Part shown: positions 32,450 through 37,598 of the stretch, in pieces
Layout: the number at the start of each line of letters is the position of its first letter
Position numbering within the stretch: position 1 is the stretch's first letter
NCBI GenBank assembly: GCA_913054475.1
Contig: CAJXJF010000008.1
Location: forward strand, 1-42,336
Direction of reading: 5' to 3'
Length of the DNA: 42,336 nt
Origin: an uncultured Nitratifractor sp.
GTDB taxonomy: Bacteria > Campylobacterota > Campylobacteria > Campylobacterales > Sulfurovaceae
Position numbers and translations under genes: made by a program
The notes under the pieces: generated by a model
Database searches by the model: none
The model's input: the letters and a program-made list of their open reading frames with translations, nothing else
Told to the model about the DNA's origin: nothing

Positions 32450-33121
32450 ATGAGAATATTGATTATAGAAGATGAAGTGACACTTAGCAAGACATTGGCC
32501 GAAGGTCTGAAAGAGTACGGATATCAAAACGATATAGCGGAAAACCTCAACGACGGCAGATACTATCTGGACATCCGCAACTACGATCTGGTTCTGATGG
32601 ACTGGATGCTGCCCGATGGTAACGGTATAGAGCTCATTCCCGAAATCAAGGAGAAGCGCTCCAAGACGGCTGTTATCGTACTTTCGGCCAGAGATGACAA
32701 AGAGAGTGAGATCGAAGCTCTCAAGGCCGGAGCGGACGACTACATCAAAAAACCTTTCGATTTCGAAATTCTGCTTATGCGAATCGAAGCCAAGCTCAGA
32801 TTTGGCGGAAGCAATATCATAGAGATTGACGAGCTCGTCATCAACCCCGAAGAGGAGAAGATAATCTACAACGGAGAGGTGATAGAGCTGAAGGGGAAAC
32901 CTTTCGAGGTCCTGACACATCTTGCCATGCATAAGGATCAGATAGTATCCAAGGAGCAGCTTCTGGATGCAATCTGGGAAGAGCCCGAACTGGTGACCCC
33001 CAATGTGATAGAGGTGGCCATAAATCAGATAAGACAGAAGATGGACAAACCTCTTGGTATAACCACGATAGAGACGGTACGAAGACGGGGTTACAGATTT
33101 TGCTTCCCTCGAAAAGCATAA
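32450..33121 (+). CDS. hsrA: HsrA/CosR-type OmpR-family response regulator with intact phospho-acceptor site
   Basis: The 223-residue protein has a receiver domain (1-115) and a winged-helix DNA-binding domain (about 125-220). The second half, including EVLTHLA, IVSKEQLLDAIWEEPE, TPNVIEVAINQIRQKMDKP and ETVRRRGYRF, is almost the sequence I recall for H. pylori HsrA (HP1043) and C. jejuni CosR, essential regulators of redox and oxidative-stress genes. Those orthologues have a degenerate receiver and act without phosphorylation. Here the receiver is canonical: Glu7/Asp8, Asp51 (LVLMDWMLPDGNG), Ser79 and Lys101. The next gene is a histidine kinase overlapping by 22 bases, so a true two-component pair is likely. 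Confidence 0.9.
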   Translation: MRILIIEDEVTLSKTLAEGLKEYGYQNDIAENLNDGRYYLDIRNYDLVLMDWMLPDGNGIELIPEIKEKRSKTAVIVLSARDDKESEIEALKAGADDYIKKPFDFEILLMRIEAKLRFGGSNIIEIDELVINPEEEKIIYNGEVIELKGKPFEVLTHLAMHKDQIVSKEQLLDAIWEEPELVTPNVIEVAINQIRQKMDKPLGITTIETVRRRGYRFCFPRKA

Positions 33122-34389
33122 GAGTCAATTTTCTCATCAAACTCAGTACCGCAATGGCGGTGCTGATCCTCTTTTTTTCCCTAATACTCTACAAATATAT
33201 CAGTTACGATATAGATAGGGAGATGGAGAATTCGCTCTTTAGACAATCGCAATACCTTTTCGCCAAATACGACGATCTGGAAAAGGCGCTTCTGACCCAA
33301 GAGAGCATATTGAAAAAGACTCTCGATATAGAGGCCAAAATAGAGTACTCTCCCGATGCCAACTATCGCCCCCCATATACGAAGAGGATGAAAGAGGGGA
33401 AGAGATATTTCATCGTAGCCTATTTCCCCTACGATTTCAGCAGACAGAAATATCTCGTTCTCAAAAAGGATATCACCCAACAGATGAAGATGAAGGAGAG
33501 TATGCTTAGAAGTATCATCCTGCTAAACGGTATAACGATGGCCATCATCATCCTGTATGCCTTCATCATATCCCGCATGCTCCTCTCACCCATACGCTAC
33601 TTTTCGGACCAAATAGCCAAAATGAACGAAAATATCCTCGAGCCGCTCGAACTTTGGCGCATACCTGTGGAGTTCTATCCTCTTGGTAAATCCGTCAACC
33701 AGCTGCTGGCGAGAATCAGCACTTTTTTGAAATACAAGAAGGAGCTCTTCATAGGAGCCGCTCATGAGATGAAGACACCGCTGGCTGTCATGCGGGCCAA
33801 AAATCAGCTCGCCCTCATAAAAAAGGAGAAGAGTATCGAAGATATGGAAAAAGCTCTCAGGGACTCTATAGCCTCCATAGACCAGATGAATCGTACAGTC
33901 ACATCGATTCTCGAGTTTGGTAGAGCGGAGGGAGCCCAGTTTGAAAAGGCGGTGGAGACAGATATAATCTCCTTTATCGGGGAGAAGGCGAAAGATTACG
34001 CTCTACTTGCCCGAAACGATGGCAAAAGGCTCAAAGTAAACCTCCATCCGGCAAAACTGCATATCAGAATCCAGCCTCTTCTACTCACTCAGATATTGCA
34101 GAATCTGATTCAAAACGCTCTACGATTCTCTCCAGAAGGAGCGGTTATAAAGATAAACAGCCACATCAAAAACGACACTTTCATTCTAAGCATAAGAGAC
34201 GAAGGTCCAGGAGTGGATGAGTCGGCGGATCTCTTTTCTCCCTTCAAGCGAAGCAGAAACTCACCGGGAACGGGGCTGGGACTCTTTCTCGTCAAGAGTG
34301 CCGCCGACGCTCTTGGGGCTACCGTCACCCTCAAAAACAGAAAAGACAAAAAAGGAGCGGTCGCCACACTTCGCCTTCCCCTCGAATAA
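33100..34389 (+). CDS. Sensor histidine kinase, partner of the HsrA-type regulator
   Basis: The 429-residue protein has two transmembrane helices (about 12-32 and 140-162) enclosing a ~105-residue periplasmic sensor region, a HAMP-like linker, and a HisKA dimerisation helix with the phospho-acceptor His222 (GAAHEMKTPLAVMRAK). The HATPase domain shows the N box LTQILQNLIQNALRFSPEG, G1 RDEGPGVDE, and G2 GTGLGLFLVKSAADALGA. All catalytic boxes look intact. The sensor region resembles nothing I know, so the signal is open. The start is TTG at 33100 inside the end of the regulator gene with GGGGTT upstream; the next Met (residue 19) would cut the first membrane helix. Confidence 0.88.
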   Translation: MLPSKSIRVNFLIKLSTAMAVLILFFSLILYKYISYDIDREMENSLFRQSQYLFAKYDDLEKALLTQESILKKTLDIEAKIEYSPDANYRPPYTKRMKEGKRYFIVAYFPYDFSRQKYLVLKKDITQQMKMKESMLRSIILLNGITMAIIILYAFIISRMLLSPIRYFSDQIAKMNENILEPLELWRIPVEFYPLGKSVNQLLARISTFLKYKKELFIGAAHEMKTPLAVMRAKNQLALIKKEKSIEDMEKALRDSIASIDQMNRTVTSILEFGRAEGAQFEKAVETDIISFIGEKAKDYALLARNDGKRLKVNLHPAKLHIRIQPLLLTQILQNLIQNALRFSPEGAVIKINSHIKNDTFILSIRDEGPGVDESADLFSPFKRSRNSPGTGLGLFLVKSAADALGATVTLKNRKDKKGAVATLRLPLE

Positions 34390-34569: not shown

Positions 34570-34611
34570 TTGATAAAAATCATATTTCTAAAAGTTACTA
34601 TTTGCTAAAAT
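34570..34611 (+). promoter_or_regulatory. Predicted FNR/CRP-family class II promoter of the cd1-cytochrome operon
   Basis: TTGAT-AAAA-ATCAT at 34570-34583 matches the FNR consensus TTGAT-N4-ATCAA at nine of ten positions. An extended -10 box, TGCTAAAAT, lies at 34603-34611. If transcription starts about seven bases after the -10 (near 34618), the palindrome centre is at about -41.5, the spacing of class II FNR-activated promoters. A/T tracts lie upstream. Confidence 0.6.
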
Positions 34612-34692: not shown

Positions 34693-36402
34693 ATGAGAAT
34701 AGGAACTGTACTTAGTTATGCAGCGGCAGTATCTCTTGCTATGACGGTAGCAAATGCAGGTACATCCAAAATGAATTTCGGAAAAATGTACGAAAAAGAG
34801 TGTCAGGGCTGCCACGGACCCATCCACCAAGGTGGTGTCGGTCTGGATCTCAGGCCCAAGGCCCTGAAGAAGAAAAACAAGCAGATGCTCGTTGATACAA
34901 TATTAAACGGCAGACCTGGTACTGCCATGCCCTCATGGAAGCACACATTCAGCAGAGACGATGCCGCAGGCATGGTCGATTGGTTGATGAATTGGAAAAA
35001 CACCGTAGAGCTCAAACTCTCGCTCAAAGATGTCAAAAAGACATGGAAGAAGCTTGCAGACAGAGAAGCTCTCTTCAAGAAATATCCCTCTCCTGTCGAT
35101 GTGAAGGATGTGAAAGATATCGTATTCGCTACAGAGCGTGATGCCTCTTTGGTTGACTTCATCGATGGTACTACGGGCAAGGTTCTCTCCAGACACAAGG
35201 CGGGATTTGCTGTCCATGTTACCGTGACCAACAAGAGAATGCCCAGATATGCATACTCCATCAGCCGCTCTGGTAGATTGACAATGTTCGATCTCAATGC
35301 TCCTGGTCAGCCTGCCATAGCCAGCGTTCAGGTCGGTCAAGAGTCCAGAGGTCTGGCTGTCTCTCCCGACGGTAAATATGTAATGGCCGGTAACTATAAC
35401 CCTGGTGGAGCCGTGCTCTGTGATGCCAAGACTCTCGAGCCTCTGAAAGTCTTCCCCACTTCCAGCGTTATCGATCCCGACGGAAATATTGGACCCAGCC
35501 GTGTAGCATACATAGCCGATACTCCTTACGCTCCCTACTTCTCGTTTGCACTCAAAGATGGCGGACATGTGTATATTGTAGACTATAGCAAGCCGGACTT
35601 CCCGATCGTTGGGGATATTCCCAATATCGGTAAAATTCTCCACGACGCATTCGAGAACGAAGGCAAGCAGGTCGGTAGATTCGTATATGTCGCTTCTCAG
35701 GGTAGTGACCTCATGGGTGTAATTGACCTCAAAACCAAAAAACTCGCCGCTAAGGTCTATACAGGACCCGGCACCAAGCCTCACCCCGGTCAGGGAAGCT
35801 CTTGGTACAACAAAGAGTATGGTCAGCTCAATGCAACAAACAGCATGAATGTGGGTGATGTCGTTATCTGGAATATGAAGAACGAAGTTGTAGCTCATGT
35901 TCCTACGGCAGGCGGCGGACTCTTCGTAGGTACCAGCAAAGATACTCCGTATCTCTGGTCCGACTGTGTACTTGGTGGTAGCGCCAACTACAACAAGGTC
36001 TATCTCATCAATAAGCAGACTCTCAAAACCGACAGAATCATCGAAGTCGGCAAGAAGGAGGGTCACCTCATAGATGCACATACAGGAAAAATACTCCAAA
36101 CTTGGGATGCCACTCAGTATAAAAACGCTGGTGCCAAAGAGATGGATTCCAAACTCTCCAAAGAGAAGATCCTCACCTATACAGCCAAACCCGGCAAGAA
36201 AGTGGCCAAGCCCGTACAGCCCAGACTGTTGCACGCAGAGCCTGCAAATCACGGCAAGTGGACATTCATCTCCGAGTGGACGACTGGAAGAATCGGTGTC
36301 TATAAGTCCGATACAGGCGAGTTCGTCAAATATATCTACAACCTGACCACTCCTACCTTTACATATTCTGTAGAGCATCGTCAGGAAGTTCCGGGAGCAT
36401 AA
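34693..36402 (+). CDS. nirS: Cytochrome cd1-type protein, probable NO-forming nitrite reductase (NirS)
   Basis: The 569-residue periplasmic protein has a signal peptide (cut after MTVANA), a c-type haem domain with CQGCH at 37-41 and a candidate axial Met in GTAMPSWK, then the eight-bladed d1 propeller. Residues that bind haem d1 and act on nitrite in NirS are all found: His175 (GFAVHV), His317 (ILHDAF) and His364 (KPHPGQG). The C-terminal part includes a Lys-rich insertion (about 475-505) before LLHAEPANHGKWTF. NirS reduces nitrite to NO in denitrification; related NirN/NirF take part in d1 synthesis, but a c-haem plus both active-site His favours reductase. No d1-synthesis genes are in the window. 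A strong ribosome site (AAAAGGAGAAGAG) suggests high expression. Confidence 0.85.
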   Translation: MRIGTVLSYAAAVSLAMTVANAGTSKMNFGKMYEKECQGCHGPIHQGGVGLDLRPKALKKKNKQMLVDTILNGRPGTAMPSWKHTFSRDDAAGMVDWLMNWKNTVELKLSLKDVKKTWKKLADREALFKKYPSPVDVKDVKDIVFATERDASLVDFIDGTTGKVLSRHKAGFAVHVTVTNKRMPRYAYSISRSGRLTMFDLNAPGQPAIASVQVGQESRGLAVSPDGKYVMAGNYNPGGAVLCDAKTLEPLKVFPTSSVIDPDGNIGPSRVAYIADTPYAPYFSFALKDGGHVYIVDYSKPDFPIVGDIPNIGKILHDAFENEGKQVGRFVYVASQGSDLMGVIDLKTKKLAAKVYTGPGTKPHPGQGSSWYNKEYGQLNATNSMNVGDVVIWNMKNEVVAHVPTAGGGLFVGTSKDTPYLWSDCVLGGSANYNKVYLINKQTLKTDRIIEVGKKEGHLIDAHTGKILQTWDATQYKNAGAKEMDSKLSKEKILTYTAKPGKKVAKPVQPRLLHAEPANHGKWTFISEWTTGRIGVYKSDTGEFVKYIYNLTTPTFTYSVEHRQEVPGA

Positions 36403-36439
36403 TCCCAACCTTTTTGTATCTCCCCCTCGGGGGGGTACG

Positions 36440-36473
36440 GTTTATCGAGAAAATCGAGGTTTTTTCGATAAAC
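36440..36473 (+). other. Long intercistronic hairpin between nirS-type gene and pentaheme cytochrome gene
   Basis: A 14-base arm (36440-36453, starting GTTTATCGAGAAAA) pairs with 36460-36473 (TTTTTTCGATAAAC) around the loop TCGAGG, with one G-T pair. It ends three bases before the ribosome site of the next gene. A short GC hairpin (CCCCC/GGGGG around 36422-36436) precedes it. Confidence 0.7.
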
Positions 36474-36485
36474 TGTGAGGGTAAA

Positions 36486-37598
36486 ATGAGAATAGTCTTG
36501 ATTCTTCTGCTTCTTGCCATACAAGGTGTGCAAGCTGCCGAATATAAAAGTAACAAATCTTGCAAAGAGTGTCACGAAAAGATATATGATGAATATAGAA
36601 TGTCCGCACACTCGAAGGGTTTCTTTACAGATGAACTACATAGAGAGGTTGCCCTAAAAGCATCTCCAAAGAGATACGAATGCGCCGTGTGTCACATGCC
36701 TGCAGCTAACAATATGAGCGATATTCTAAGTGGTAATGCCTTTCCCGACCCTTCGAATGTAACGCATACCGATGCCGTATCCTGCTACTTCTGCCATACT
36801 ATAGCCTATGTCAAAGAGTCTCACAAATTCAATATAAACCTACCGGCAAAACAGGCCGAAGGATACAAACCTTCACTTTTTGGCTCTCTCAAAGATCCAG
36901 ATCACAACGACAAGCACTCTGCCCTACACAGCCCCATCTATCGTGCAAACGCCTGCAAGGGGTGCCATTCCCACAAACTCAACGACTTCAACACTACCAT
37001 ATTTGAAGCGATGAAGCCTGGAGAGGATAGCAAAGAGTGTATAAAGTGCCATATGCCTATGCTCCCCGGGGGAGTAGAAAAGCTCAATCACAAGAACAGA
37101 ACGGAGCATATGAGTCACAGATTCCCGGGCATAAGAGATGAAAATTTCAGAAAAAAGGGTGTCGATATAGCAGTTACAAGCAAGGCTAATACGATTATGG
37201 TGACACTCGTAAACAAAATGCCACATCCCTTGATTATACAACCGGCAAGAGCCAAATATCTGAGAGTCTCAGTTCTTAGAGGCGACAAAAAGATATGGTC
37301 GAACTACAAGAACTCTCCCGAAGAGGATAGAAAGAGCTACTTCGCCTATATCTTCAAAAAAAATGGCAAAAGAATCAATATCCCCGCCACTGCGACTGAA
37401 ACCATCGCTCACAATCTGCCTGCAAAAGGGAGTCTGAAGCTCGAATATAGAGTTCCCTCTCTCGAGAGTGGAGATATAGTGAAGGTCGAGCTCATACTCA
37501 GACTGGCAAAAAGAGACTGCTCCAAGGTGGTAACGCTCAAAGAGTATATATGGACAGAAGAGCAGATTATCAAGAGTGTCGAGTATAAGGTGCCCTAA
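36486..37598 (+). CDS. Pentaheme c-type cytochrome (cytochrome c554-like)
   Basis: The 370-residue periplasmic protein has a signal peptide (MRIVLILLLLAIQGVQA) and five CXXCH sites at residues 26-30, 66-70, 100-104, 157-161 and 185-189 (CKECH, CAVCH, CYFCH, CKGCH, CIKCH), with additional His residues (for example SAHSKGFF) able to be distal ligands. The C-terminal ~170 residues lack haem motifs and look beta-rich. Spacing resembles the cytochrome c554 family. Being directly downstream of the cd1 gene, it may deliver electrons to it or act on a nitrogen oxide itself; this is inference. The frame opens at 36414, but the ATG at 36486 has GAGGG upstream and starts the signal peptide. Its end overlaps ftsW on the other strand. 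Confidence 0.87.
   Translation: MRIVLILLLLAIQGVQAAEYKSNKSCKECHEKIYDEYRMSAHSKGFFTDELHREVALKASPKRYECAVCHMPAANNMSDILSGNAFPDPSNVTHTDAVSCYFCHTIAYVKESHKFNINLPAKQAEGYKPSLFGSLKDPDHNDKHSALHSPIYRANACKGCHSHKLNDFNTTIFEAMKPGEDSKECIKCHMPMLPGGVEKLNHKNRTEHMSHRFPGIRDENFRKKGVDIAVTSKANTIMVTLVNKMPHPLIIQPARAKYLRVSVLRGDKKIWSNYKNSPEEDRKSYFAYIFKKNGKRINIPATATETIAHNLPAKGSLKLEYRVPSLESGDIVKVELILRLAKRDCSKVVTLKEYIWTEEQIIKSVEYKVP

Follow-up and report, generated by a model that had tools for sequence, protein, structure and literature searches.

The window analysed here, a stretch of 42,336 nucleotides that makes up all of contig 8 in a 1.74-Mb draft genome, carries a gene for a divergent cytochrome cd1 followed by one for a pentaheme c-type cytochrome. 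In our judgement these genes probably encode a periplasmic denitrification unit, predicted from sequence, in which the cd1 protein would reduce nitrite to NO, the pentaheme protein would serve as a frequent but optional electron-transfer partner, and haem d1 would be completed without NirN. The features concerned are:

32450..34389, + strand: OmpR-type response regulator and sensor kinase, directly upstream of the pair
34570..34583, + strand: FNR/NnrR-like palindrome TTGATAAAAATCAT, some 110 nt ahead of the cd1 start
34693..36402, + strand: cd1 gene, 569 aa, with signal peptide, c-type haem domain and d1 propeller
36109..36207, + strand: Lys-rich loop, cd1 residues about 473-505
36403..36485, + strand: intercistronic region between the cd1 and pentaheme genes, with an RNA hairpin of high stability (-36 kcal/mol)
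36486..37598, + strand: pentaheme c-type cytochrome with five CXXCH motifs and a C-terminal Ig-like beta-sandwich, PHC / penta-haem c552 family

An earlier note on this DNA had proposed a two-gene unit of a cd1 protein and a five-haem cytochrome, and both genes are real, as seen from their domain matches and the five CXXCH motifs. The cd1 protein matches the Pfam families Cytochrome_CBB3 (PF13442) at residues 31-98 and Cytochrom_D1 (PF02239) at 139-560 (E 1.7e-54). Its haem-c motif is C37-x2-C40-H41, with Met79 as candidate axial ligand, and the ligands in the d1 propeller are the proximal His175 and the distal His317 and His364. Residues were compared in a set of 46 proteins and numbered as in Pseudomonas aeruginosa NirS from a HMMER alignment. 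The equivalents of R156, H182, R198, R225, Y245, H327, H369 and F425 are kept in all 13 clade members aligned, so that the active-site histidines ascribed to this NirS-type protein are indeed all present. At the H327 position NirN has Asp or Glu and NirF has Phe or Tyr, whereas the window protein has His317, which gives the clade a NirS-type distal pocket. One departure is found at Arg372 (PHPGR, after the second distal His), which is replaced by Gln in 13/13 clade members. Of 12 aligned NirS, 11 have this arginine; since Ruegeria NirS also lacks it in the same alignment, it is not strictly NirS-defining.

Relatives that share 62-91% identity with the window cd1 make up one close-knit Campylobacterota clade, which includes Sulfurovum, Hydrogenimonas and Arcobacter caeni; the nearest named relatives come from Nitratifractor and further metagenome genomes of Campylobacterota. 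In one Hydrogenimonas locus (L122) the cd1 ORF is split. Identity to ordinary NirS is 24-30%. In the 46-protein alignment, members of the new clade are 24-27% identical to P. mandelii NirS, compared to 47-49% for the canonical Campylobacterota NirS, and the distance from the clade to NirS is as great as that from NirS to NirN. The closest solved relatives are P. pantotrophus NirS (140 bits), NirN (126) and NirF (77). In a tree rooted on NirF the clade is supported at 100/100 and lies outside a NirS plus NirN group (96/90). By the AU test, a single clade of the new type with NirS is not rejected (p 0.145), and grouping with NirN is marginally rejected (p 0.0385). The NirS from beyond Campylobacterota in this tree are seven plasmid records. 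In view of the long branches and the sparse outside sampling, the claim is limited to this: on sequence, the cd1 clade is a separate lineage, nested in none of NirS, NirN and NirF. The phylogeny proposed in the earlier note thus places the protein outside the NirN and NirF clades.

A haloarchaeal d1 protein lacking the c domain was considered as the clade's sister and set aside; it is 32% identical in the d1 part, its branches are long, and its placement is unsure. It is encoded, unannotated and in two frames, on a Natrinema plasmid (L149 7979-9127 region), and its likeness to the new clade equals that of any NirS (32%).

It is very improbable that the cd1 protein is a NirN- or NirF-like biosynthesis protein and no nitrite reductase. 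Its distance from NirS, as large as that of NirN, would fit such a role. In Foldseek searches the AlphaFold model (pLDDT 72, moderate quality) matched structures of both NirS and NirN (E near 1e-30), NirS 1aof and 1nir among them, and the top single match was NirN, by a small margin. Yet the acidic residue that replaces distal His327 in NirN is absent, the architecture of NirF, a lone d1 propeller with no c haem, is not that of this protein, which has a c-haem domain, and NirF is encoded by a separate gene in the same genome. The AU test disfavours the NirN grouping, clade members fill the nirS slot behind norCB, and the genome yielded no second NO-forming nitrite reductase. The low identity to NirS, the Arg372 to Gln change and the position beside NirS in the tree count against the nitrite-reductase reading, as does the lack of a norB match in the window's genome. 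Since the d1-site residues are kept, relatives carry it in norCB/d1 operons and d1 genes are present in the genome, the window cd1 is most likely an NO-forming nitrite reductase.

The gene order in most relatives, with variations and in many genera, is norC-norB-cd1-(pentaheme)-nirC-nirJ-nirF-nirE; some operons run cd1-nirC-nirJ directly, with no pentaheme gene between. Genomes of the same phylum with canonical NirS have norC-norB-nirS-nirN-nirC-nirJ-nirF-nirE. The pair in the window's genome is separated from the nir genes and lies behind the two-component system, whose genes occupy the spot held by norC-norB in most relatives; a functional tie between that system and the pair is putative. 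The earlier note saw the pentaheme gene in place of d1-synthesis genes. That is true of contig 8 only: nirC-nirF-nirJ-nirE are on contig 5, and contig 18 has one NirDL-GH fusion, in divergent orientation to the nap operon, so that the genes for d1 synthesis, which the note had proposed to look for, were located elsewhere in the genome. Nor does the pentaheme gene replace them in most relatives, where nirC/J/F/E come directly after the pair. The fusion (L063 7842-8882) joins NirD/L and NirG/H parts in one 346-aa protein.

Nap and NosZ are also present in the window's genome, and its only Cytochrom_D1 proteins are the cd1 and NirF. No Cu nitrite reductase was found in it above the profile cut-off, a weak match being the cupredoxin part of NosZ. 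NorB was not found in this genome, a draft in which assembly gaps are possible, and is present in 12/12 congeners searched. Contig 11 has a haem-copper subunit I with a CuA-less subunit II (G000:C11:30807-32465; L183 1420-3081, with 781-1416), a candidate gNOR-like pair; gNOR has been listed for Sulfurovum and Sulfurimonas (PMC8756737). The loss of norCB was considered as a sign of another function and dismissed. Relatives with NorB also carry the gNOR-like pair, which is therefore not a dedicated NorB replacement. Together, the NirS d1-site residues and the synteny with norCB and d1-synthesis genes lend good support to the nitrite-to-NO module that had been proposed, as predicted from sequence.

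The Lys-rich insertion noted near residues 475-505 is real, at about 473-505. The loop is some 35 residues longer than the same loop of canonical NirS, from which the insertion is absent; inside the clade it is variable, common to most members and shorter in Arcobacteraceae. A role as docking site for the cytochrome was rejected: loci without the cytochrome keep the same loop of 55-59 residues, and G062 has the cytochrome without the insertion. Loop length thus does not track the cytochrome, and the idea that the insertion marks a special substrate or partner finds no support. For the related suggestion that the cd1 variant acts on another nitrogen or sulfur substrate, no supporting evidence was found. 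We regard it as highly unlikely that the enzyme's main substrate is oxygen, hydroxylamine, NO or a sulfur oxyanion and that the pentaheme protein is a special donor for it; the Arg372 to Gln change close to the active site and the additional loop, clade-wide or nearly so, and the sulfur-oxidising hosts would suit such an activity, but the remaining listed d1-site residues agree with NirS, synteny is with norCB and d1 genes, and canonical NirS replaces the new type within genera.

The pentaheme ORF at its full extent spans 36414-37598 and holds all five CXXCH motifs. Its true start is likely the ATG at 36486 (370 aa) and not the TTG at 36414, since the former is common to relatives in an alignment with 22 of them and is followed by a signal peptide, judged by eye. 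The protein has a profile match to penta-haem c552 (E 3e-20), and the best structural match of its model (pLDDT 81) in Foldseek is Thermochromatium tepidum penta-haem c552 (E 7e-18, TM 0.69). With five CXXCH motifs, an Ig-like domain and the 5ze8 fold, it belongs to the PHC / penta-haem c552 family. That match makes it likely, on sequence grounds, an electron-transfer cytochrome. Eight histidines outside the motifs are invariant among the aligned members (42, 52, 113, 144, 163, 208, 211 and 247), which would be enough for bis-His ligation of all five haems and fits electron transfer better than catalysis. No Pfam match to NrfA was found in 23 pentaheme members, which have five plain CXXCH and no CXXCK catalytic haem motif.

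Among the 80 closest relatives, 68 loci have enough downstream sequence, and in 47 of these, from several genera and with varied flanks, the pentaheme gene comes right after cd1. Phylum-wide it lies within 2 kb of cd1 in about 20 of the 51 genomes with the new type (one copy broken), which indicates a frequent but dispensable partner and no essential donor. The supposed co-occurrence of the two genes therefore holds for close loci and weakens across the phylum, and an electron wire of the enzyme's own is plausible from the family assignment but not obligatory. Weaker paralogues (25-40%) are found elsewhere, canonical genomes included, and never adjoin canonical nirS. In G001 the pentaheme gene is split (G001:C44:168845-169108). 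It is hardly probable that the two genes came to adjoin by chance or decay and do not work together: the locus in the window's genome has lost norCB, the partner is absent from many relatives and the G001 copy is in pieces, but the order is kept in those 47/68 loci, with their varied flanks. The hairpin was tried as a signature of the pair and rejected; most relatives have a stable one behind the cd1 coding sequence, whether or not a pentaheme gene comes next, and hairpins are found behind canonical nirS too.

It has been established that NirF and NirC make dihydro-d1, which NirN turns into d1 (PMC13168839). The distribution of NirN was followed in 397 Campylobacterota genomes, with tallies of NirN and cd1 types counted by hand from tables. 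The new cd1 is present in 51 and canonical NirS in 24; the two co-occur in a single genome (G394) and so replace each other. NirN orthologues (47-100% identity) occur in 25 genomes, namely all 23 that have canonical NirS alone and two in which NirS was not detected, and in none of the 51 with the new type. Two genera switch type, g2 (G013 canonical, G023 new) and g18 (G043, G228, G307 and G348 canonical; G321 and G345 new), and the NirN rule holds in both, indicating that shared ancestry alone is not a sufficient explanation. As NirN never accompanies the new type, the latter must finish d1 otherwise or by itself, and we infer that the clade completes haem d1 without NirN.

The pentaheme cytochrome could be an accessory of d1 maturation, standing in for NirN as electron acceptor for dihydro-haem d1 oxidation. 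It occupies the exact nirN slot of the canonical norCB-nirS-nirN-nirCJFE operon, and NirN is missing from 51/51 new-type genomes. We think this unlikely, since about 30 of these genomes have no neighbouring pentaheme gene and likewise no NirN, some operons pass directly from cd1 to nirC-nirJ, and the pentaheme protein has no d1 propeller. A bolder proposal, possible though doubtful, is that the new type is a third kind of cytochrome cd1, which would oxidise dihydro-haem d1 itself and then reduce nitrite, with the pentaheme protein as optional conduit. Such a self-maturing cd1, if true, would explain the missing NirN, including in the genera with switched types.

In the preferred reading, that of a nitrite-reducing unit, haem d1 would be built by the genome's NirE, NirDL-GH fusion, NirJ, NirF and NirC, and the last oxidation, NirN's step elsewhere, would proceed without that protein. 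The divergent cytochrome cd1 would then reduce nitrite to NO at haem d1 with electrons arriving via its own c haem, and in species with the pentaheme gene its product would pass electrons to cd1 or buffer them. Sequence, residues, synteny and the presence or absence of genes are what is shown directly; from these we infer that the enzyme reduces nitrite, which way the electrons run and that the last step needs no NirN.

Further cd1-like proteins were seen in the survey. G394, home to a new-type cd1 as well as a canonical-like NirS (L175), also encodes a 985-aa protein (L174 2833-5790) whose large N-terminal part holds two CXXCH and which ends in a d1 propeller, with 33% identity to the window cd1. 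Another family with c haem and propeller (L176 4621-6237, L177 57-1742) occurs in canonical-NirS genomes; both distal His are present, with Asp in place of R198 and Pro in place of R225.

With respect to regulation, besides the palindrome ahead of cd1 the same genome has a perfect TTGAT-N4-ATCAA between napA and nirDL-GH (L063 7718) and a one-mismatch FNR-like box about 100 nt before nosZ (L184 10607), out of five FNR-like sites in about 120 kb scanned. This suggests that cd1, nap/nirDL-GH and nosZ may be under common FNR/NnrR-type control. Boxes before norC in relatives were at chance level (2/41 vs 1.8 expected) and were discounted.

The divergent type is about twice as frequent as canonical NirS in the phylum, and its carriers include many lineages of vents and sulfidic habitats. 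With its 24-30% identity, it may escape primers for canonical nirS or tight profiles. The all-or-none NirN pattern within genera is a natural experiment on the finishing and loading of haem d1, and the pentaheme partner offers an alternative, open to test, to the monohaem or azurin donors that serve known cd1 enzymes.

According to its main text, a recent phylogeny in which NirN served as the external and NirF as the internal outgroup has a NirS clade 3 (Campylobacterales) of sulfur and hydrogen oxidisers (Pold et al., 2024; PMC10999283). The cd1 clade is probably this clade 3, matched by taxon range and not by sequences; the deep position is also compatible. That main text is silent on a pentaheme partner and on NirN being confined to canonical genomes. 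No report of a pentaheme partner for cd1 was found in the openly accessible literature. Both the NirN exclusion and the partner thus appear to be new descriptions, of an enzyme clade probably already known.

The window cd1 resembles NirS of P. aeruginosa and P. pantotrophus in the order of c and d1 domains, fold, proximal His182, both distal His, the conserved R156, R198, R225, Y245 and F425, and linkage to norCB and d1-synthesis genes. It differs in its 24-30% identity, the Arg372 to Gln change, the Lys-rich loop, its own tree branch, the lack of NirN in new-type genomes (0/51) and the pentaheme cytochrome that often adjoins it. With NirN, the dihydro-haem d1 dehydrogenase (PDB 6rtd), it shares overall fold and domain order, but NirN carries Asp or Glu where NirS and the new clade have distal His327. 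The PHC family includes Geobacter ExtKL and cable-bacteria sPHC, and T. tepidum c552 is related to it; a tie of c552 to an archaeal cytochrome nanowire has been proposed (PMC11976967). Like T. tepidum c552 (PDB 5ze8) and the PHC family, the window partner carries an Ig-like domain behind its five haem motifs; unlike c552, to which it is 19% identical in the structural alignment, it is tied to a nitrite reductase operon.
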